Of a stretch of 64,000 bases of DNA, positions 27,198-36,510 are shown one piece after another. Made by a program: the position numbers and the translations under genes. A model generated the notes under the pieces. The model had not been told where the DNA came from. It saw only the letters and a list, made by a program, of their open reading frames with translations, and did not search any database. The stretch is from Alkaliphilus metalliredigens QYMF (GTDB lineage Bacteria; Bacillota; Clostridia; Peptostreptococcales; Natronincolaceae). The stretch spans positions 3,205,539-3,269,538 of the forward strand of contig NC_009633.1 in the NCBI RefSeq assembly GCF_000016985.1, read 5' to 3'. Each line of letters starts with the position of its first letter. The first letter of the stretch is position 1.

Positions 27198-27506
27198 TTT
27201 GTTCCTCCTGTCTTTTATTGTTTGATACAATTGTGAATAATACTTCAGGTAAATTTTACCTTAGAACCGCAATATTTACAATACTTTTTAAATGATTTCC
27301 ATATTAAAATCTTTTTATTCATATATTTTCACTTCAATAACTCTAATAATTCAACATATATATTAATACAAAGCGAATTATATAAATATTGTTATTTTTA
27401 TATTGATTAAGCCTTCTATTTTATTATATTTATTGTATAATAATAATAACTAATACTATCTATATCATGCACAACCATTCATAATTTGCTTCTAGGAGGA
27501 GTTGTT
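27198..27506. other. AT-rich divergent promoter region
   Basis: No gene is seen. A TATAAT at 27436-27441 could serve the hydrogenase-like gene on the plus strand, but no matching -35 is clear. The AGGAGG site of that gene is at 27494-27499. Confidence 0.4.
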
Positions 27507-28760
27507 ATGCACCCTACAATCCATGGTATTTCTTTGGACCTTTCCAAATGTGTCGGATGCACTCGCTGTGTTAAAAACTGTCCATCAGAAGCAAGTCGTG
27601 TAAGAGATGGTAAGTCTCTCATTATTAATACAAAGTGTATCCATTGCGGACAGTGCACACAGGTGTGCACTCACCATGCCCGAAGTAGCATTACAAATGA
27701 GCTCAATTCAATTTTAAAATATCCCTACCGAATTGCCTTAGTGGACCCAGTTCTTTACAGTCAATTTGATGAACACCTTTCCATAGATCAAATTCTCTCA
27801 AGTATAAAGGATTGTGGTTTTCATTCTATATTTGAGACTTCTCAAGGTGCGGATCTTGTTTCTGACTTTACTAGAGACTGCATTAACGCACCACAACAAC
27901 TTCCAATTATTTCTTCTTCCTGCCCTACTATCATACGACTTATTCAAATGCGTTATCCCAGCTTAATTCAGAACATTTTGCCAATCAACTCACCAGTAGA
28001 GATCGCAGCTTATATGGCTAAGACCCAGGCAATAGAAAAACGACAGCTCTCAGAGGAAGAAATTGGGGTTTTTTATATCACTCCTTGTACAGCTCGCACC
28101 TACAGTTTCCAAAATCCTGTAGGAACTCAAAATTCTTATGTGGATGGCACTTTTTCAATCAAAACCATCTTTTTAGAGGTCAGTAAAATCATCGGAAAAA
28201 ATGACATCTCAAATCCACAAGAGAAGAGCTCCTTTTATCCTTCTGGTAAAGGCATCGGATGGGCTCGGACCGGTGGTGAATCTCAATCCTTAGGAATTAA
28301 AGAGTATTTAGCTGTTGATGGGATTCAAAATGTAGTCAATGTTTTAGATGAAGTAGAATTTAAAAAGATCGATGATGTTATCTTTCTTGAGTGTCATGCT
28401 TGTACCGGTGGATGTGTCGGCGGATGCTTGACAGTAATCAATCCCTTTGTTGCCCGTAATCGGATCCGCAGATTAGCTGAAAAACATTATGCTAATTCGC
28501 CTAATTATGTCAACATTTCCCCTGAGACCTTTGCCCTTACAGAGCCCATCCAATCCTTAGAAATCCTGCAATTAGATGAGGATATGTGCCATGCCATTAA
28601 AAAGATGGAAGCGATTCAAAAAGTTTTATCTAGTCTTCCTAACATTGATTGTGGTGCGTGTGGTTCTCCCTCCTGTAGGGCCCTAGCAGAAGATGTTGTA
28701 GGAGGCTATGCTTCACTATCAGACTGTATCGTTCAATTAAAAACCCAGCTTAAAAAATAA
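27507..28760 (+). CDS. Sensory-type [FeFe]-hydrogenase homologue (HydS-like)
   Basis: A 417-aa protein with three parts. Residues 15-57 carry two [4Fe-4S] ferredoxin motifs (CVGCTRCVKNC, CIHCGQCTQVC). The H-cluster domain follows: L1 SSSCP (Cys139), L2 TPCTA (Cys193) and L3 ECHACTGGCVGG (Cys299, Cys303). The proton-relay cysteine of catalytic hydrogenases (first Cys of TSCCP) is serine here, a hallmark of slow sensory enzymes. The C-terminus has a fourth cluster site, C-x2-C-x4-C-x16-C (382, 385, 390, 407). No maturation genes or PAS domain are present. It probably senses hydrogen or redox state. The start is ATG 27507 behind AGGAGG. Confidence 0.88.
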   Translation: MHPTIHGISLDLSKCVGCTRCVKNCPSEASRVRDGKSLIINTKCIHCGQCTQVCTHHARSSITNELNSILKYPYRIALVDPVLYSQFDEHLSIDQILSSIKDCGFHSIFETSQGADLVSDFTRDCINAPQQLPIISSSCPTIIRLIQMRYPSLIQNILPINSPVEIAAYMAKTQAIEKRQLSEEEIGVFYITPCTARTYSFQNPVGTQNSYVDGTFSIKTIFLEVSKIIGKNDISNPQEKSSFYPSGKGIGWARTGGESQSLGIKEYLAVDGIQNVVNVLDEVEFKKIDDVIFLECHACTGGCVGGCLTVINPFVARNRIRRLAEKHYANSPNYVNISPETFALTEPIQSLEILQLDEDMCHAIKKMEAIQKVLSSLPNIDCGACGSPSCRALAEDVVGGYASLSDCIVQLKTQLKK

Positions 28761-28790
28761 CACAAAAATGTCAAGTACTCAAAAAATCAA

Positions 28791-28830
28791 AACCGCTGTT
28801 CGAGAGCATTGCGCATCTCAATCAGCGGTT
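28791..28830. terminator. Bidirectional terminator
   Basis: AACCGCTG with CAGCGGTT and an inner GAGA/TCTC pairing. The T run is better on the minus strand (TTTTGATTTTTT), so it mainly ends the PII-like gene. Confidence 0.65.
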
Positions 28831-28847
28831 CTTCGTATAGAGAAATA

Positions 28848-29513
28848 CTAATACAACCCATAAGTTTTGTTCACATCTTGAATGAAAATAATACCGTTAC
28901 CAGGTTCATCAATTTGAAGTTCATCTCTAATAGAAGATGAAATTGATTCTGTTAGATGATTCTCAGATATGATCAAGACAATTTCCTTTTCTGGTTCTAT
29001 TTCCATAGCAAATAGCTTACTGGTTTCATGTATGCCCGAACCTCGTGCATTAACAATCGTCGCTCCTCTAGAACCGGCCTTCTTTGCAGCTTCTACCACA
29101 GATTCTGCATTACCTCTATCAACAATTACAAAAATAATATTATACATTGGATTTTCCACACCTCTGCTTTCTTTAGTATCATTACTTGTTAAGTTTTTAG
29201 CTCCGAATATGTTCAGGACCGAAGTACTAAATGCGATGCCATGATTTGGTTTATTAAAATTAAATTTCTTATTAAGTGCCTCTAGGCCAGCATAAGCTAT
29301 GGTTTGTTCAGCTACCATTAAAACAATTTCTTTTCTAGCTTCAGCTAAATCCAGAAATTCTAGAATCGGATTTCTGATCGTTCCTTTACCTAAAAAAATT
29401 GTGCCCCCTGTTATTCCATTTTGCTTTGCACATTTTATGACTTTACTTCCCAATCCTCGACTTACTATTAAACATAACAATTCATGCACTATGTAATTAG
29501 TACTACTATTCAT
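28848..29513 (-). CDS. Tandem PII-like protein linked to DUF1538
   Basis: A 221-aa protein made of two PII-like (GlnB-fold) halves in one chain. The halves repeat the same landmarks: GLGSKVIKCAKQNGITGGTI against GNAESVVEAAKKAGSRGATI, KEIVLMVAEQ against KEIVLIISEN, and NHGIAFSTSVLNIFG against GNGIIFIQDVNKTYG. PII proteins bind nucleotides and control transporters by trimer formation; a tandem protein would presumably make a pseudo-hexameric or dimeric variant. The classical uridylylation T-loop tyrosine is not obvious. Its start overlaps the end of the DUF1538 gene by 8 bp, so the two are translated together and it likely regulates that membrane protein. Confidence 0.8.
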   Translation of the reverse strand: MNSSTNYIVHELLCLIVSRGLGSKVIKCAKQNGITGGTIFLGKGTIRNPILEFLDLAEARKEIVLMVAEQTIAYAGLEALNKKFNFNKPNHGIAFSTSVLNIFGAKNLTSNDTKESRGVENPMYNIIFVIVDRGNAESVVEAAKKAGSRGATIVNARGSGIHETSKLFAMEIEPEKEIVLIISENHLTESISSSIRDELQIDEPGNGIIFIQDVNKTYGLY

Positions 29514-30996
29514 TCTTTAGAATACCTCCTTTTTTAGACTTTAGATTAAAAATAAAACCTAAGATTTGCAAAGTAATGATTGGAGTTAAGGCTACAGTGG
29601 CAATCATACCAAATCCATCTATTAAAATACTTGCGCCTTCAATTGCTTCTGCAGCTCCTTGTGTAAAAGCTAAGATGAAGGTTGCTGTCATAGGGCCTGT
29701 GGCAACGCCACCTGCATCAAATGCAATCCCTACAAATAACTTTGGCACAAAATAGGTCATGACAATTGAAATTAGGTATCCGGGTAAAAGATAATACCAT
29801 AGTTGAATTCCTGGTACGATTATTCTTAGCATCGATAGGGCCACCGCAAGTCCTACTCCTATGGAAAGGGCAATGAGTACAGCTTTTCTTTTAACATACC
29901 CACTTGTCACATCTTCTATTTGATTTGTTAATATATAAACTGCAGGTTCAGCTAATATTGTTACAATCCCAAGAATAAATCCCATAATGATAAGATAAAA
30001 TTTGTTATCTAAAGAGGCAAGACTATATCCGATAACACTTCCTACATCCATGAATCCAGCATTGACACCGACTAAAAATATTAAGAGTCCTACAAATGTA
30101 TAAACGAAACCTTTTAACATCTTTGCAAAAGCTTTTTTACTCAACTTAAAGGATATTTTTTGTAGCACCAAAAGAATGATTAGAAGCGGTGAAAGAGCAA
30201 AGAAACTTTCTCTTAATATAGCTGGTATTATTTGTATAAAGGGTCCCATGATTGTGGTTAATTCAGGTGTATTGGATTCAATATTCCCAGAAAATTCATT
30301 GGTTTTCGAAAGAATACTCATGATGATAACTGACATGATTGCACCAACAGATGTTATGGCAACTAAACCAAAACTATCTTTTTCAGATGCCTTACTATCT
30401 TTTTTTAGCTTAGAAACACCTATTGCTAGAGCGAGAATAAATGGCACTGCCAGTACCCCAGTGGTTGCACCTGAAGCATCAAAGGATATTGCTAAAAACT
30501 CTGATGAAGCAAATAATGCTAAAATAAAAGTGAGTCCATATAATATCGTTAAGACTTTATATAACGGTACATTAAAAACGATTCTAGCAAAGCCTAATGC
30601 AAGCATTATTGCCATACCAATGGAGACGACTATCAGAATGCTTATGCTAGATATTTGACCTGATGTGACCAAACCAACTTGATTGGCAAGTACGATTAAC
30701 CCAGGTTCAGCAATTGAAATAAAAAAACCAAGGATAAATCCAGCAGCAATAACGATCCATAGTTTGTTTGTTTTAGCAAGAGTAGATCCCATTACGCTAC
30801 CAAGAGGAGTCACACCAATGTCCACTCCTATTAAAAAAAAGGATAACCCCAAGATAATTAAGAATGCACCAATAAGAAATCTAATGATCAGTGGCGCTTC
30901 AAGAGGTGTAAGCGTAACGCTTAATATCAATACAATGATTGTAATAGGTAGAATTGAAAATATAACTTCTTTCAGTTTTTCAGTAAATATATTCAA
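29506..30996 (-). CDS. DUF1538 duplicated membrane protein, putative permease
   Basis: A 496-aa integral membrane protein with about twelve hydrophobic segments arranged as two homologous halves. Each half has GVxxGxxxxGSVxGxxLA (residues about 55 and 310), an FILGxxxxxAEPxxxxLxNQ segment and a glycine-rich FDAxGxxTG block (SFDASGATTGV, AFDAGGVATGP). Such inverted or repeated FDAGG-like half-sites are typical of transporters, but DUF1538 has no assigned substrate that I know. The likely start is TTG 30996 behind AAAGGATG, a weak choice. The downstream overlapping gene encodes a PII-like regulator, which suggests nutrient- or nucleotide-controlled transport. Confidence 0.8.
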   Translation of the reverse strand: MNIFTEKLKEVIFSILPITIIVLILSVTLTPLEAPLIIRFLIGAFLIILGLSFFLIGVDIGVTPLGSVMGSTLAKTNKLWIVIAAGFILGFFISIAEPGLIVLANQVGLVTSGQISSISILIVVSIGMAIMLALGFARIVFNVPLYKVLTILYGLTFILALFASSEFLAISFDASGATTGVLAVPFILALAIGVSKLKKDSKASEKDSFGLVAITSVGAIMSVIIMSILSKTNEFSGNIESNTPELTTIMGPFIQIIPAILRESFFALSPLLIILLVLQKISFKLSKKAFAKMLKGFVYTFVGLLIFLVGVNAGFMDVGSVIGYSLASLDNKFYLIIMGFILGIVTILAEPAVYILTNQIEDVTSGYVKRKAVLIALSIGVGLAVALSMLRIIVPGIQLWYYLLPGYLISIVMTYFVPKLFVGIAFDAGGVATGPMTATFILAFTQGAAEAIEGASILIDGFGMIATVALTPIITLQILGFIFNLKSKKGGILKNE

Positions 30997-31362
30997 ATAG
31001 TTTCACATCCTTTTATTGAATTTCTGTTAAAGAATTTAGCTAAGACCCTACCTGATTCCCCGATGTTATAGTTTACTGAAACGAGTTCACAATTCCTCCT
31101 TCTTTTCCATATTACCCAATGATTCTATAAATAATATATGATTTACCTTACCTACCATTATAGCGTACTAAAGCCTTAATTTTATAGATTTAAACAATAT
31201 ATTCATTAGTCCTTTTATAATTCACTATAATTTTGCACAAATAAAGGCAACAAAATATCTATAATTTGCTATTGTGTTCATGTATTCCTGATTTATTTTG
31301 TAAATGATTACCTCAGTTTTGGTAATTATTTTGAAAGTACAAAACGATAGAAAATTATATTA
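30997..31362. other. Gene-free AT-rich region
   Basis: Upstream of the DUF1538 operon (minus). I see no small gene, RNA or clear promoter; promoters for that operon must lie here. Confidence 0.4.
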
Positions 31363-31405
31363 CGATAAGAAAAGCCCAGTTATTTAAACTGGGCTTTTCT
31401 TATCG
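31363..31405 (-). terminator. Strong terminator downstream of tRNA-Val
   Basis: A 19-bp inverted repeat, CGATAAGAAAAGCCCAGTT with AACTGGGCTTTTCTTATCG, loop of about five bases. It is unusually long and symmetrical and could act in both directions. Confidence 0.75.
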
Positions 31406-31460
31406 TTTCATTGTTTTGATTGTTAGTGTCCAACATTCGCGCAAATTACCATTTTGTTTT

Positions 31461-31537
31461 TGGTGGGAAATAATGGACTCGAACCATCGACCCCTTGCAT
31501 GTCAAGCAAGTACTCTAGCCAGCTGAGCTAATTCCCC
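31461..31537 (-). tRNA. tRNA-Val(GAC)
   Basis: A 77-nt cloverleaf with encoded CCA: acceptor GGGGAAT/ATTTCCC, D stem GCTC/GAGT, anticodon stem CTTGC/GCAAG with loop TTGACAT (anticodon GAC) and T arm GATGG-TTCGAGT-CCATT. Confidence 0.95.
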
Positions 31538-31728
31538 AAGCAAGATTCATTTTAACACAAATTATATCCCCTGTAAACATTTTTTTGCCAAATGATTTTC
31601 ACTTTTCAAGCCTAAAAATTCAAACTAAATTTTAACTGGAATAATACATCACTTATTCTTATAAATTCTATATTAAGAAAAAGGTTATATGTTTCATTTT
31701 TTTCTCTGGGGGTAAAAAAAAAGTAGAC

Positions 31729-31758
31729 TTGTAAAATTACATGAAAGTAATGTAAAAT
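31729..31758 (+). promoter_or_regulatory. Promoter of the Rnf/Nqr-like operon
   Basis: TTGTAA (31729-31734) and TAAAAT (31753-31758), 18-bp spacer. The spacer and -10 contain the palindrome TTACAT-N7-ATGTAA, which may be an operator. Confidence 0.5.
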
Positions 31759-31789
31759 CATATCAACACAATGAAGGAGGTCGACATAT

Positions 31790-32752
31790 ATGACGGAGTT
31801 ATATCGTTCTATTTTTATGAAACAAAAAATGATGCGCAAAGTACTGTATAGTTTAATTCCAGTCACCCTAGGATCTATCTATTTCTATGGTTGGCGAACA
31901 CTAGTGCTTATGGCTGTTATTTCTGTTTTTGGTATATTTACTGAATACCTATTTAAAAGAAAATCAAATAAAAAAGTTTCAGAAGCTGTCTTAGTTACAA
32001 GTATATTACTAACTTTGACCCTTCCCGCCTCTACCCCCTTTTGGGTCGGTATTATTGGTATCATTTTTGGTATCGTTTTTGCAAAAGAGATTTTTGGAGG
32101 ATTCGGACACAATGTATTTAATCCTGCCTTAGCTGCAAGAACCTTCTTGTATGTTACCTTCCCTGAACCAATGACTGTTCAGTGGAGCACAGTGTCCTCT
32201 GGTTTCCCTGGAGGCTTTGCAAGATACCTTTCTCCAGCATTAGATACCATAACTCAATCTACTCCTCTAGGCATCCTTCGCCAAGGGGGAGAAATGCTTC
32301 CACTTAGAAATCTCTTTATTGGCAATACCTCCGGTTCCTTAGGCGAAGCCAGTGCTTTCTTAATCTTAGTGGCAGCAGCTTATTTACTATTTACTAAAAC
32401 CGCTGATTGGAAATTAATGCTTGCACCGGTTATTGGATTTGTTGGTATTCATTCCATTTTACTCTTAGCTAATGTTTCCAGTGTTCCAAGTCCACTCCAC
32501 GGTTTATTATCTGGTGGATTTTTATTTATGACAGTATTCATGACAACAGACCCCATTACTGCTCCAAAACAAACAGAGGCCAAATGGATTTATGGTCTTT
32601 TAATTGGTATTATTGCCAGTGTCATTCGTATCTTTGGTATCTTTGTGGGTGGTGCTATGTTTGCTGTGTTAATCATGAATACCTTCTCCCCTATTCTAGA
32701 TGAAGGAATTAAACATCTGAAGTCTTCTAAAAGAAAGAAGGTGACAGCATGA
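31790..32752 (+). CDS. RnfD/NqrB-like membrane subunit
   Basis: A 320-aa polytopic subunit of an ion-translocating NADH or ferredoxin oxidoreductase. Conserved segments are GGFGHNVFNPALAARTF, GNTSGSLGEAS and FMTTDPITAPKQ-TEAKWIYG. The covalent FMN threonine is expected in TQSTPLG (about residue 164). The length of 320 is RnfD-like; NqrB is about 100 residues longer. It has an AGGAGG site and overlaps the next gene by four bases (ATGA). It is first of five genes, so no NqrA or RnfC gene precedes it; the upstream neighbour is a tRNA on the opposite strand. Confidence 0.88.
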   Translation: MTELYRSIFMKQKMMRKVLYSLIPVTLGSIYFYGWRTLVLMAVISVFGIFTEYLFKRKSNKKVSEAVLVTSILLTLTLPASTPFWVGIIGIIFGIVFAKEIFGGFGHNVFNPALAARTFLYVTFPEPMTVQWSTVSSGFPGGFARYLSPALDTITQSTPLGILRQGGEMLPLRNLFIGNTSGSLGEASAFLILVAAAYLLFTKTADWKLMLAPVIGFVGIHSILLLANVSSVPSPLHGLLSGGFLFMTVFMTTDPITAPKQTEAKWIYGLLIGIIASVIRIFGIFVGGAMFAVLIMNTFSPILDEGIKHLKSSKRKKVTA

Positions 32753-33351
32753 AGAAATTCACGTTTAAACCGATTCTGTTTATGATTATCTTAACCGTTG
32801 TTTATACTGGTGTATTAGCAACCATTAATGAGGTCACCCGAGATAGAATTCAGTTAAATGAAAAGCTCAGCGAACAACGCTCTTTATTATATGTGTTAGA
32901 TTTCTCTATCCCCGATGATGCTGTTGAAGTCAGTAATTTTTACAGCACCCATATTGAAATCATTGAACATCAGGGTGAAACATTGTATGCTGGCTACCAA
33001 GGTGATGAATTAGTAGGCTATGTGATACCCATCGTCGGTGATGCAGTATGGGGTCAGTTAACAGGATTTGTTGCTTTAACTCCAGACTTCACTGAAATTA
33101 TTGGGGTTGAATTTTTATCCCACAATGAAACACCTGGTCTTGGTGGCAGAATTGACGAACTAGAATTTAAAGAGCAGTTTAGAAGTATTGGCATCGACCC
33201 AGATGCCATTGAAAATTTTATCGCCTATCGCCCTGACCCTGAAGGACAGGTAGATGCAATCTCAGGAGCAACAGGGACTTCAAATGCTGTTAGAAGAATC
33301 TTAAATGCAAGCCTTCAAGCGTTTCTAGCAGAAACAAGGGAGGGATTATAA
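32749..33351 (+). CDS. RnfG/NqrC-like FMN-binding subunit
   Basis: A 200-aa protein with one N-terminal membrane helix (residues 9-26) and an extracytoplasmic FMN-binding domain. The motif DAISGATGTSNAV contains the threonine (Thr175) that binds FMN by a phosphoester bond in RnfG and NqrC. The segment FLSHNETPGLGGRI is also conserved. The length agrees with RnfG rather than the longer NqrC. The ATG overlaps the previous stop (ATGA). Confidence 0.9.
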   Translation: MKKFTFKPILFMIILTVVYTGVLATINEVTRDRIQLNEKLSEQRSLLYVLDFSIPDDAVEVSNFYSTHIEIIEHQGETLYAGYQGDELVGYVIPIVGDAVWGQLTGFVALTPDFTEIIGVEFLSHNETPGLGGRIDELEFKEQFRSIGIDPDAIENFIAYRPDPEGQVDAISGATGTSNAVRRILNASLQAFLAETREGL

Positions 33352-33352
33352 G

Positions 33353-33982
33353 ATGTCAAAAAAAACAAAACGTATTTTTCAACTGGGAATCCTAAATGAC
33401 AATCCCGTTTTTAGACAAATATTAGGAATTTGTTCTGCCCTGGCCGTTACAAATTTAATGATCAACTCCCTGGTAATGGGAATTGGCCTTATTTTCGTGA
33501 CTGCCTTGTCTAGTTTTACAGTATCCGTCCTTAGAAAACATACCCCAAGACATATTCGGATGATGGTACAAACCTTGATCATCTCTGCCTATGTTATTAT
33601 TGTTGACATCGTGCTCAAGGCCTATTACCCTAGCATGAGTGATGCCCTTGGTCCCTATGTTGGATTGATCATTACAAACTGTATCATAATGGGACGTTGT
33701 GAATCCTATGCACAGAATAATCCCCCTAGCTTAGCCTTTCTCGATGGCATTGCCTCAGGCTTAGGATACACATTTGTATTACTATTAATTGCTTTCTTTA
33801 GAGAATTACTGGGATTCGGAAGTATATTTGGCATTACTGTCATGGGTGCTTGGTGGCCAAGATGGATCTTTATGATTATGCCTCCTGGAGCCTTCTTCAT
33901 GCTTGGTATTTTAATTTGGGTAATGAACTCTCTCGTTCCTTCTGAAGAGAAGGAAACTTCTGTAGCTGGAGGTGCTAACTAA
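33353..33982 (+). CDS. RnfE/NqrD-like membrane subunit
   Basis: A 209-aa protein with about six membrane helices. It keeps the cysteines that ligate the intramembrane [2Fe-2S] cluster with the partner subunit: [11 protein letters not shown] (Cys27 region) and [12 protein letters not shown] (Cys108 region). The N-terminal cytoplasmic [12 protein letters not shown] is typical. It starts two bases after the previous stop and overlaps the next gene by one base. Confidence 0.9.
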
Positions 33983-34572
33983 TGGAAAATGTGAACCCAT
34001 TTGTCATCTTATTTGCATCAATTTTTACAAGCAATATGATCCTAGCTAATTTCTTAGGAATGTGCTCTTTTATCGCAGTCTCTAAGGAGATTAAGACTTC
34101 CCTGGGATTAGGCCAGGCGGTTACCTTTGTACTGACTGGAACAACAATTATTAACTACTTGGTCTATCATCATGTACTTGTTCCCTTTGGCTTAGAGTAT
34201 TTAAGGTTTATTGTGTTTATCATTACAATTGCCGCCTTTGTACAATTAGTTGAAATGGTCGTAGAGCGCTACCTCCCTAACCTGTATTATTCCTTAGGGA
34301 TCTTTCTACCACTAATTACTGTTAATTGTGCCATTTTAGGAGTTTCCCTCTTTATGGTCATTCGTGATTATACCTTCATTCAGTCCGTTGCCTTCGGATT
34401 CGGGTCTGGATTAGGGTGGTTACTTGCTATATTAGCGATGTCAGGTATACGTCAGAAAATTAAAAAAGCACCGATCCCTAAAGGCCTTGAAGGAGCAGGA
34501 ATCACCTTGTTCATTACTGGATTAATGGCTCTAGCCTTTATTGGATTCTCAGGCATCGTTCAAATACAATAG
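33982..34572 (+). CDS. RnfA/NqrE-like membrane subunit
   Basis: A 196-aa six-helix protein related to RnfE/NqrD in inverted topology. It has the matching cysteines in [15 protein letters not shown] and [14 protein letters not shown], needed for the shared [2Fe-2S] cluster at the membrane centre. [13 protein letters not shown] and the C-terminal [11 protein letters not shown] are family features. It begins at the overlapping TAATG with the previous gene. Confidence 0.9.
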
Positions 34573-34588
34573 TAACGGAGGTGAATAC

Positions 34589-35689
34589 ATGAACACCATT
34601 TTGACCACCATTTTAATCATAACTGGAATTACAACTACCCTTGCCCTCCTGCTTACTTTAGCTAACACTTATATTGCAGATTATGGCGAAAGAAAAATTC
34701 GGATTAACAAAGATAAAGAATTCATCGTTGAAGGTGGCAATACGTTATTATCTTCCTTAATTGAAAATGAAATCTACCTTCCTTCAGCCTGTGGTGGTAA
34801 GGGAAGCTGTGGTTATTGTAAATGTGCCATTAACGAAGGGGGCGGGCCTGTCCTTCCTACAGAGCTTTCCTACCTAACAGAGGATGACATGAAAAACAAT
34901 GTCCGTTTGTCTTGTCAGGTCAAGGTAAAGGCAGATATGGAGATTCAAATTGCTGAAGATCTATTAAATGTTAAACAATTTGAAGCCATTGTTGAGAAAA
35001 CCGAAGACCTTACCTCAACCATTAAGTTATTGCGATTGAAGATTACCGATGGTCAGGAAATTGAGTTTAAGGCTGGACAATACGTACAGCTATTGGCGCC
35101 ACCCTATCCTGGTAGCCCTGATGAAGTCTTCCGTGCTTATTCCATTGCTTCTTCTCCAAATAACAAGGGTTATATCGATTTAATTATCGGTTATGTGCCA
35201 GACGGTTTATTGACGACTTATGTTCATAAACATTTATCTGAAGGAGATGAGATCCTTTTTAATGGACCCTTTGGCGATTTCTATTTACAAGATTGTGAAG
35301 AGGATGCCATCCTCGTTGCTGTTGGAACTGGAATGGCACCTATTAGAAGTATTTTATTTGAAATGCTTAACAAAAAAATTGATCGTAATACGATCTTCTT
35401 CTTCGGTGCAAAGACTCCTGAAGACCTATTTCTATTAGATGAGATGACAATGTTTGAAAAAGAGCTTCCTCGTTTCAAGTTTGTTCCTACTCTTTCACGA
35501 GCACCAGAAGAGTCTCAGTGGAAAGGTGAAGAAGGTCGGGTAACCGATGCCATGATGAAATTCTTAGAGAAAAAAGAAGGGCGTGAAGCCTACCTTTGTG
35601 GTAGTGCTCCCATGATCGATTCAACTGTCAAGACCCTAGTTGAGAGAGCCTTCGCTGACAACAAAATCTACTACGATAAGTTTGATTAA
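34589..35689 (+). CDS. nqrF: NqrF-type NADH dehydrogenase subunit
   Basis: A 366-aa protein that ends the operon. Domain order: one N-terminal membrane helix (6-28); [2Fe-2S] ferredoxin domain with cysteines at 68, 74, 77 and 109 (ACGGKGSCGYCKC ... LSCQ); FAD domain with RAYSIASSP; NADH-binding domain with VAVGTGMAPIRS and AYLCGSAPM. This is the electron-entry subunit of Na+-NQR, oxidising cytosolic NADH. The start ATG 34589 follows GGAGGTG; an earlier frame start at 34541 lies inside the previous gene. Pairing an NqrF with Rnf-length membrane subunits and no NqrA is the odd feature of the operon. Confidence 0.93.
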   Translation: MNTILTTILIITGITTTLALLLTLANTYIADYGERKIRINKDKEFIVEGGNTLLSSLIENEIYLPSACGGKGSCGYCKCAINEGGGPVLPTELSYLTEDDMKNNVRLSCQVKVKADMEIQIAEDLLNVKQFEAIVEKTEDLTSTIKLLRLKITDGQEIEFKAGQYVQLLAPPYPGSPDEVFRAYSIASSPNNKGYIDLIIGYVPDGLLTTYVHKHLSEGDEILFNGPFGDFYLQDCEEDAILVAVGTGMAPIRSILFEMLNKKIDRNTIFFFGAKTPEDLFLLDEMTMFEKELPRFKFVPTLSRAPEESQWKGEEGRVTDAMMKFLEKKEGREAYLCGSAPMIDSTVKTLVERAFADNKIYYDKFD

Positions 35690-35707
35690 TCAATCTAGAC
35701 ACAAAAC

Positions 35708-35734
35708 AAAAGCAGCCCTTGGCTGCTTTTATTT
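35708..35734. terminator. Terminator of the Rnf/Nqr-like operon
   Basis: AAAAGCAGCC with GGCTGCTTTT, loop CTT. It is shared with the convergent gene. Confidence 0.85.
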
Positions 35735-35752
35735 TGGTTACATTCATTTTAT

Positions 35753-36421
35753 TTAGTATTCCCTACGATAAATCTCCATTCTGCTTCTGAAAATTTCTAA
35801 TGTAGAGGGTGGATTATAGATAATTGCGTTGGCACCAGCATCAATGGTTCTTTTGATATTTTCTTCATCGGCCCCACCTGTTGCAAAAATGGGTACTTGT
35901 TCAAAATGCTTTCGGATTTCTGCCACTATCTTTGCTGTGTCTTTACCCGCTGCTACATTTAAAATATCCACTCCAGCAGCCAAGCGTTCTTCAAGCTTTT
36001 TTAAATTCGAAGAAACCACTGTAACTGTAACGGGAATGTCTATCAATTCCTTCATCAGCTTCACTGTATCATTAGGAGTAGGTGCATTAAGCACCACACC
36101 AATTGCCCCTTGGAACTCCGCGTGTAACGCTAAGTTTGATGACCTTTGCCCACTTGTCACCCCACCACCGACACCACAAAACACAGGCACATCTGAGGAT
36201 GTCATAATGGCGTGATTAATGGTTGGTTGAGGTGTAAAGGGGTAGACTGCCCAAATCGCATCGGCATTAATGTTTTCAATAATTGATATATCAGTGGTAA
36301 AGGCTAAGGATTTAATCTTCCGTCCAAATACAACCACCCCTGAAGCCTCTCGAATGACCTCTGGTACTTTAATCATATAACTCCTTAGGTTCCCTGTAAT
36401 ATTCGGTATATATTGCTTCAT
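35753..36421 (-). CDS. TIM-barrel-like protein of unknown substrate
   Basis: A 222-aa soluble protein with the alternating pattern of a TIM barrel. The C-terminal phosphate-binding signature is suggested by VPIFATGGADEENIKRTIDAGANAIIYNP, and inner strands include GIDILN-type AGVDILNVAAG and VTVTVVSS. It resembles ribulose-phosphate-epimerase, ThiE or KDPG-aldolase-like barrels, but key residues do not point to one reaction. The start is ATG 36421, eight bases after GGGG. It has no operon partner except perhaps the small gene upstream. Confidence 0.6.
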   Translation of the reverse strand: MKQYIPNITGNLRSYMIKVPEVIREASGVVVFGRKIKSLAFTTDISIIENINADAIWAVYPFTPQPTINHAIMTSSDVPVFCGVGGGVTSGQRSSNLALHAEFQGAIGVVLNAPTPNDTVKLMKELIDIPVTVTVVSSNLKKLEERLAAGVDILNVAAGKDTAKIVAEIRKHFEQVPIFATGGADEENIKRTIDAGANAIIYNPPSTLEIFRSRMEIYRREY

Positions 36422-36510
36422 GTACATGACCCCTTTTCTTCCATGAGTTCAGCCTCTGTGCATCCGTAATGGATTATGCAAGCAAGAGAATCCTTTGTAA
36501 AGATAATAAT

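Follow-up and report, generated by a model that had tools for sequence, protein, structure and literature searches.

What a membrane protein of the DUF1538 family and the PII-like protein encoded beside it do together is the question raised by this locus, which lies in a 64,000-nucleotide stretch of the Alkaliphilus metalliredigens QYMF genome (NC_009633.1, positions 3,205,539 to 3,269,538; "the window" below). The pair is present in a third of the sampled genomes of the phylum, and where checked its products carry no annotation beyond 'DUF1538' and 'P-II family nitrogen regulator'; PII proteins have so far been described as regulators of nitrogen or carbon nutrient uptake. The reading we favor, with somewhat better than even confidence, is that the two genes form a self-contained module, in which a UmpAB-like monovalent cation/proton antiporter is switched by the PII protein through a small ligand, probably an adenine nucleotide.

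Gene organization and the two duplicated proteins

The membrane protein gene (29506-30996, minus strand) starts with TTG and encodes 496 amino acids, both start and length being conserved among relatives, and its product is a putative fused UmpA/UmpB-like antiporter. The tandem PII gene (28848-29513, minus strand) starts with ATG, encodes 221 amino acids, and overlaps the first gene by 8 bp (29506-29513, reading ATGAATAG on the minus strand); the coordinates, strands and overlap given in the initial annotation are correct. Because the PII gene has a strong ribosome-binding site of its own, as we read the sequence (AGGAGG, 29525-29530, minus strand, inside the end of the DUF1538 region), coupled translation of the two genes is plausible only. 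On the 3′ side of the PII stop codon the sequence reads as a stem (AACCGCTG/CAGCGGTT) followed by a T-rich stretch (28781-28830, minus strand), which is likely the transcript end and was missed by the stem scan because of its long loop. No riboswitch match was found in window positions 27300-36500.

The module is convergent with a plus-strand gene (window 27486-28760) for a short protein with ferredoxin, iron-hydrogenase large-subunit C-terminal and FeS domains. On its other side, a 20-pair stem resembling a two-way terminator (window 31362-31406) and a tRNA-Val gene (window 31461-31537, minus strand) separate it from an adjoining five-gene Nqr-type operon on the plus strand (window 31790-35689; NqrB, FMN-binding NqrC, NqrD, NqrE and an NqrF-like protein). 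No nqrA gene was found ahead of this operon and the genome gives only weak NqrA_N matches; a Na+-pump operon without NqrA is possible.

The 496-residue protein matches PF07556 (DUF1538) twice in Pfam (448.5 bits against a cut-off of 22.6; E 3e-135), with about seven membrane helices per half. Its first half (30262-30996, minus strand; residues 1-245) and second half (29506-30261, minus strand; residues 246-496 and the stop codon) share 31% identity over 243 columns (E 3e-40), a score reached by none of 1000 shuffles. Two motifs recur: AEP, at residues 96-98 (30703-30711) and 349-351 (29944-29952), and FDxxGxxTG, as FDASGATTG at residues 172-180 (30457-30483) and FDAGGVATG at residues 426-434 (29695-29721), all on the minus strand. 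In the first half the Glu of AEP and the Asp, Gly, Thr, Thr and Gly of FDASGATTG are invariant among 57 relatives; in the second, Glu-Pro and Asp-x-Gly-Gly are invariant. The alignment and a model of a natural DUF1538-PII fusion (see below) place these motifs, with their invariant Glu and Asp, at helix breaks or close to them in each half, the first AEP at a helix break itself, and we regard them as candidate ion and proton sites. In the same model the linker has a pLDDT below 50, there is no trusted contact between the PII domain and the membrane part, and the fold match list is filled by the PII domain. The internal duplication with repeated half-sites that had been read from this protein initially is therefore real, with AEP at 96 and 349 and FDASG/FDAGG at 172 and 426.

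One DUF1538 pair has a measured activity, overlooked in the initial annotation, which left the substrate unknown: UmpAB, a split pair of Halomonas zhaodongensis, was reported in 2017 as a Na+(Li+,K+)/H+ antiporter with an optimum at pH 9.0, assayed in an E. coli strain devoid of its main antiporters (PMC5484666). The UmpAB clone contains four open reading frames, none of them a PII gene, and transport thus needs no PII partner of its own. The 496-residue protein scores 162.6 against the equivalog cut-off of 490 for NF041627, and 154.9 against 500 for NF041628, and is therefore a member of the DUF1538 family and no demonstrated UmpA or UmpB equivalog.

The halves of the soluble protein share 28% identity over 97 columns (E 2e-12), again with no shuffle out of 1000 scoring as high, which rules out a chance repeat or compositional artifact for either protein. 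Only the C-terminal half passes the Pfam cut-off for PF00543 (P-II; 43.2 bits against 25), and this family matches all 22 single-domain relatives (E up to 0.1). An AlphaFold2 model of the 221-residue protein, from an alignment of 89 relatives (pLDDT 87, pTM 0.82), has two complete β-α-β-β-α-β units, spanning about residues 10-99 and 124-214, the ferredoxin-like PII fold in both halves, and its best solved matches in Foldseek are GlnK/PII chains (E 2e-6), in agreement with the duplicated PII fold proposed at the outset. PstA, the c-di-AMP receptor, was considered as a relative and is a generic fold match only.

The first PII domain (29217-29486, minus strand; residues 10-99) is diverged and lacks the RGxGxHE motif, and the second (28860-29144, minus strand; residues 124-218) is conserved. 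The latter carries RGSGIHE (residues 157-163; 29025-29045, minus strand) at the base of a T-loop six residues shorter than that of E. coli GlnK, together with PGNGIIF (residues 204-210; 28884-28904, minus strand), the B-loop counterpart of GDGKIF in GlnK, with Ile in place of Lys90 in the alignment to the E. coli protein. The Arg, both Gly and the Glu of RGxGxHE are invariant in 19 near and 22 single-domain relatives. Since the C-terminal domain has kept this motif and the N-terminal domain has lost it, sensing and docking may perhaps be divided between the two domains.

Compared to E. coli GlnK, the subfamily consensus keeps Gly27, Thr29, Gly35, Gly37, Gly87, Gly89 and Phe92, residues on the adenine/ribose side of the site, and loses Gln39, Tyr51, Lys90, Arg101 and Arg103, which bind phosphates, Mg or 2-oxoglutarate or, in the case of Tyr51, are modified. 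With these contacts lost, the subfamily should not sense 2-oxoglutarate in the manner of GlnB, and our best guess for the ligand is an adenylate that carries fewer phosphates, or else some other nucleotide. By the long T-loop and five residues that delimit the canonical GlnB/GlnK subfamily, these proteins fall outside it, and the label 'P-II family nitrogen regulator' is probably misleading here. The A. metalliredigens genome has three further PII genes (C1 3450833, 3604795 and 3605180), and as these are closer to the canonical profile the tandem protein appears as an extra, specialized member.

Linkage of DUF1538 and PII genes across genomes

Loci were collected from 60 relatives, a one-genome-per-species scan (80 named loci), a sample of 299 genomes drawn evenly from the phylum, from which 60 further stretches were fetched, another phylum, and plasmids; all six-frame open reading frames were scored with purpose-built profiles for DUF1538 and for the PII domain of the tandem protein. 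As best matches, the 80 scan loci lean towards near relatives, a bias of which the 299-genome sample is free; Gammaproteobacteria, including Halomonas, lie outside the survey, and its alphaproteobacterial examples are two plasmids.

Several patterns of association are seen. First, an adjacent PII gene on the same strand is present at 188 of 193 distinct DUF1538 loci; of the five others, three are cut by contig ends, one (L028) is an internally deleted second copy, and one (L174) is truly lone. Secondly, DUF1538 occurs in 101 of the 299 genomes and the PII subfamily (called at E up to 1e-10) in 102, with both in 100, DUF1538 only in one, the PII subfamily only in two, and neither in 196; thus all but three of the 103 genomes that have at least one of the two families have the other as well. 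The corresponding Fisher value of 2e-76 ignores kinship, and the near-perfect match is independent of it. Thirdly, in public plasmid records the two products already stand next to each other under the names 'DUF1538 domain-containing protein' and 'P-II family nitrogen regulator'. These distributions support a dedicated, nearly exclusive partnership, as judged from gene content, and bear out the link between the two families suggested in the initial annotation; in the open-access literature naming DUF1538, a coverage that leaves subscription journals aside, we found no earlier report of it. The L174 gene (2937-4436, minus strand) is the only intact lone DUF1538 gene found, and reads as lying beside PdxA2-like and DUF1537-like genes; PII subfamily genes are present on another contig of that genome.

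At four loci (L074, L076, L078 and L082) a PII domain is fused to the C-terminal end of a double DUF1538 protein, giving open reading frames of 602-630 amino acids, each with a tandem PII gene just upstream. As all four cluster together in the trees, a single event may lie behind them. The fusions are strong evidence that the two families act in one complex, and they place the C-terminal end of DUF1538 in the cytoplasm. Fusion and near-obligate linkage would be seen equally if the PII protein were a constitutive structural or assembly subunit that senses no ligand, reflecting complex formation only, and such a role is in keeping with the absence of Tyr51, the residue that is modified, and of Lys90, Arg101 and Arg103, which contact the ATP phosphates. 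We consider this unlikely, however, as the nucleotide-side glycines and RGxGxHE are strongly conserved in the second and single domains, as for a ligand site, and UmpAB functions in E. coli with no PII gene on its clone.

The direction of control could also be the reverse, with the membrane protein recruiting or sequestering a PII protein whose real target lies elsewhere in the cell. Such sequestration of GlnK at the membrane by AmtB is documented, and no conserved third gene limits the targets that might be imagined. Yet we find this very improbable for the DUF1538 module, since the DUF1538 pair UmpAB transports in its own right (PMC5484666) and the PII domains fused to DUF1538 are unable to leave the membrane.

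Among the 132 nearest flanking genes of the pair, three occurrences is the most that any Pfam family reaches. With no recurrent family, no pathway points to a substrate, and with no third gene regularly beside the pair, the transporter is the obvious PII target. The same survey rules out the Nqr-type operon as a general neighbor of the module. The substrate here might, however, be a metabolite or another ion, such as an organic acid, ammonium or bicarbonate, and not Na+ or K+, with the PII protein controlling DUF1538 all the same. PII proteins are known to control the transport of ammonium, nitrate, urea and bicarbonate (PMC10710835), the 496-residue protein is by score no UmpA or UmpB equivalog, and a single family member has been assayed; on the other hand, cation/proton antiport is the sole measured DUF1538 activity (PMC5484666) and the flanks of the pair show no recurrent metabolic gene. 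We take a metabolite or other ion to be a possible but distinctly less probable substrate, and prefer monovalent cation/proton antiport.

Membrane topology and the order of duplication

Basic residues were counted for each half in two alternating sets of loops, A and B, delimited by the helices of the fusion model. In the A. metalliredigens protein the counts are 7 and 1 in the first half and 1 and 12 in the second, an opposite charge. The same holds in general: A minus B averages +4.4 in the first halves of 134 fused proteins and +3.5 in those of 38 pairs, and -8.7 and -7.1, respectively, in the second halves. The 12 solo DUF1538 proteins have no bias (mean -0.4, sd 1.9). Opposite bias in paired halves and none in solo proteins is the classical sign of dual topology, as in the SMR and Fluc families. 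The opposite loop charges argue that the DUF1538 unit is an antiparallel two-half transporter, in which the halves would be inserted in opposite orientation and the solo proteins would have dual topology. DUF1538 resembles SMR and Fluc in that its solo forms show no charge bias, its paired genes show opposite bias and fused forms exist, and it differs from them in its larger unit, of about seven helices per half, and its cytoplasmic regulator. No mention of DUF1538 in connection with dual topology was found in the open-access literature that names it; UmpAB is reported as a heterodimer requiring both partners, which fits antiparallel halves, in a paper that does not discuss topology (PMC5484666).

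The number of PII domains varies with DUF1538 architecture, a relation that the initial annotation had missed, as it had the opposite loop charges of the halves and the fusions. All 12 solo DUF1538 proteins (about 235 residues) are accompanied by one PII domain, and fused double proteins at uncut loci always by at least two (as a tandem gene in 108 cases and as two separate genes in 7, with three or more domains in a few loci), the sole apparent exception being cut by a contig end. Split, UmpA/UmpB-like pairs have one PII domain in 15 cases, as do two double loci, and two domains in others (14 tandem, 6 as two genes). A strict one-to-one matching of DUF1538 and PII domains was considered and given up, since 15 split pairs have just one PII domain and three occur at seven loci or more. 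Three PII domains per double DUF1538 are found at L070, L088, L093 and the four fusion loci; this number would suffice for one PII trimer. The largest forms seen are those of L157 and L158 in Desulfobacterota, with DUF1538 proteins of 706-713 residues and PII proteins of 369-381 residues.

In the DUF1538 tree, first and second halves are separated with full support, and a group set apart on the first-half side holds the solo proteins together with a Desulfobacterota pair (L153-L155). This pair duplicated independently of the main pairs and is a second origin of the split state, again with opposite loop charges. Split pairs with one PII domain lie near the base of the DUF1538 tree, and the PII first domains form a group of their own, in a tree of 99 columns with many open forks. 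From this branching the likely order is that DUF1538 duplicated, then PII duplicated, and then the DUF1538 halves fused; duplication of both in the same event was dropped as an explanation, since the one-PII split pairs branch outside the two-PII ones. A wider proposal, for and against which we see about equal weight, is that these proteins make up a large and unrecognized PII branch whose role is the homeostasis of monovalent cations and pH, with a member for each DUF1538 antiporter, in which the antiporter passed from solo homodimer to opposite pair to fused inverted repeat and the PII protein from one domain to two, becoming fused to its partner in places. The solo, split and fused DUF1538 forms offer a natural series for the origin of inverted-repeat transporters, with the regulator following.

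A possible mechanism and comparison with known systems

In the mechanism we propose, the two DUF1538 halves, which are the separate UmpA and UmpB elsewhere, would be joined in one chain and lie antiparallel in the membrane as an inverted repeat, with AEP and FDxxGxxTG near the helix breaks of each half serving as ion and proton sites. The PII protein would bind at the cytoplasmic face and switch the antiporter, most likely by keeping it in an inactive state, as happens to AmtB with GlnK and to SbtA with SbtB, and the switch would follow binding or release of a small ligand. This would probably be an adenine nucleotide, sensed differently than in GlnB and GlnK because the phosphate and 2-oxoglutarate contacts are lost. 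If the PII protein does gate the antiporter, the cell would couple its Na+, K+ and pH balance to a small-molecule signal in the cytoplasm, and PII sensors may also control cell salt and pH balance. Some observations count against this reading as a whole: the known PII-gated transporters are trimers (PMC10710835), UmpAB is active without PII on its clone, the UmpA and UmpB equivalog scores are missed by far, and the L174 gene is alone.

Three known systems are instructive. UmpAB belongs to the same Pfam family in both of its homologous halves, which are required together; in A. metalliredigens these form one fused chain accompanied by a PII gene, and the UmpAB paper makes no mention of PII (PMC5484666). 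AmtB-GlnK is similar in its conserved neighboring genes and its Pfam P-II family, P-II/GlnK proteins being the nearest solved proteins by sequence; it differs in its transporter, in the long T-loop, Tyr51, Gln39, Lys90, Arg101 and Arg103 of GlnK, all missing here, and in that the PII protein here is tandem. SbtA-SbtB, a cyanobacterial bicarbonate transporter and its PII-like regulator, likewise consists of a transporter with a dedicated PII partner, and the fused PII domain matches SbtB best in fold; however, SbtA is of another transporter family, and SbtB is single-domain and only weakly similar in sequence (E 0.17 or worse). SbtB gates SbtA, a Na+-coupled transporter (PMC10710835; PMC10991534), and it binds AMP, ADP, ATP, cAMP and c-di-AMP, holding SbtA in the AMP or ADP state (PMC10991534). 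The PII-controlled transporters listed in a 2023 review on the switching of transporters are Amt, Nrt, Urt and SbtA, with no cation/proton antiporter among them (PMC10710835). By analogy, the mode of action of the DUF1538-PII module would be that of AmtB-GlnK and SbtA-SbtB, in another class of transporter and with a divergent, often tandem PII protein.
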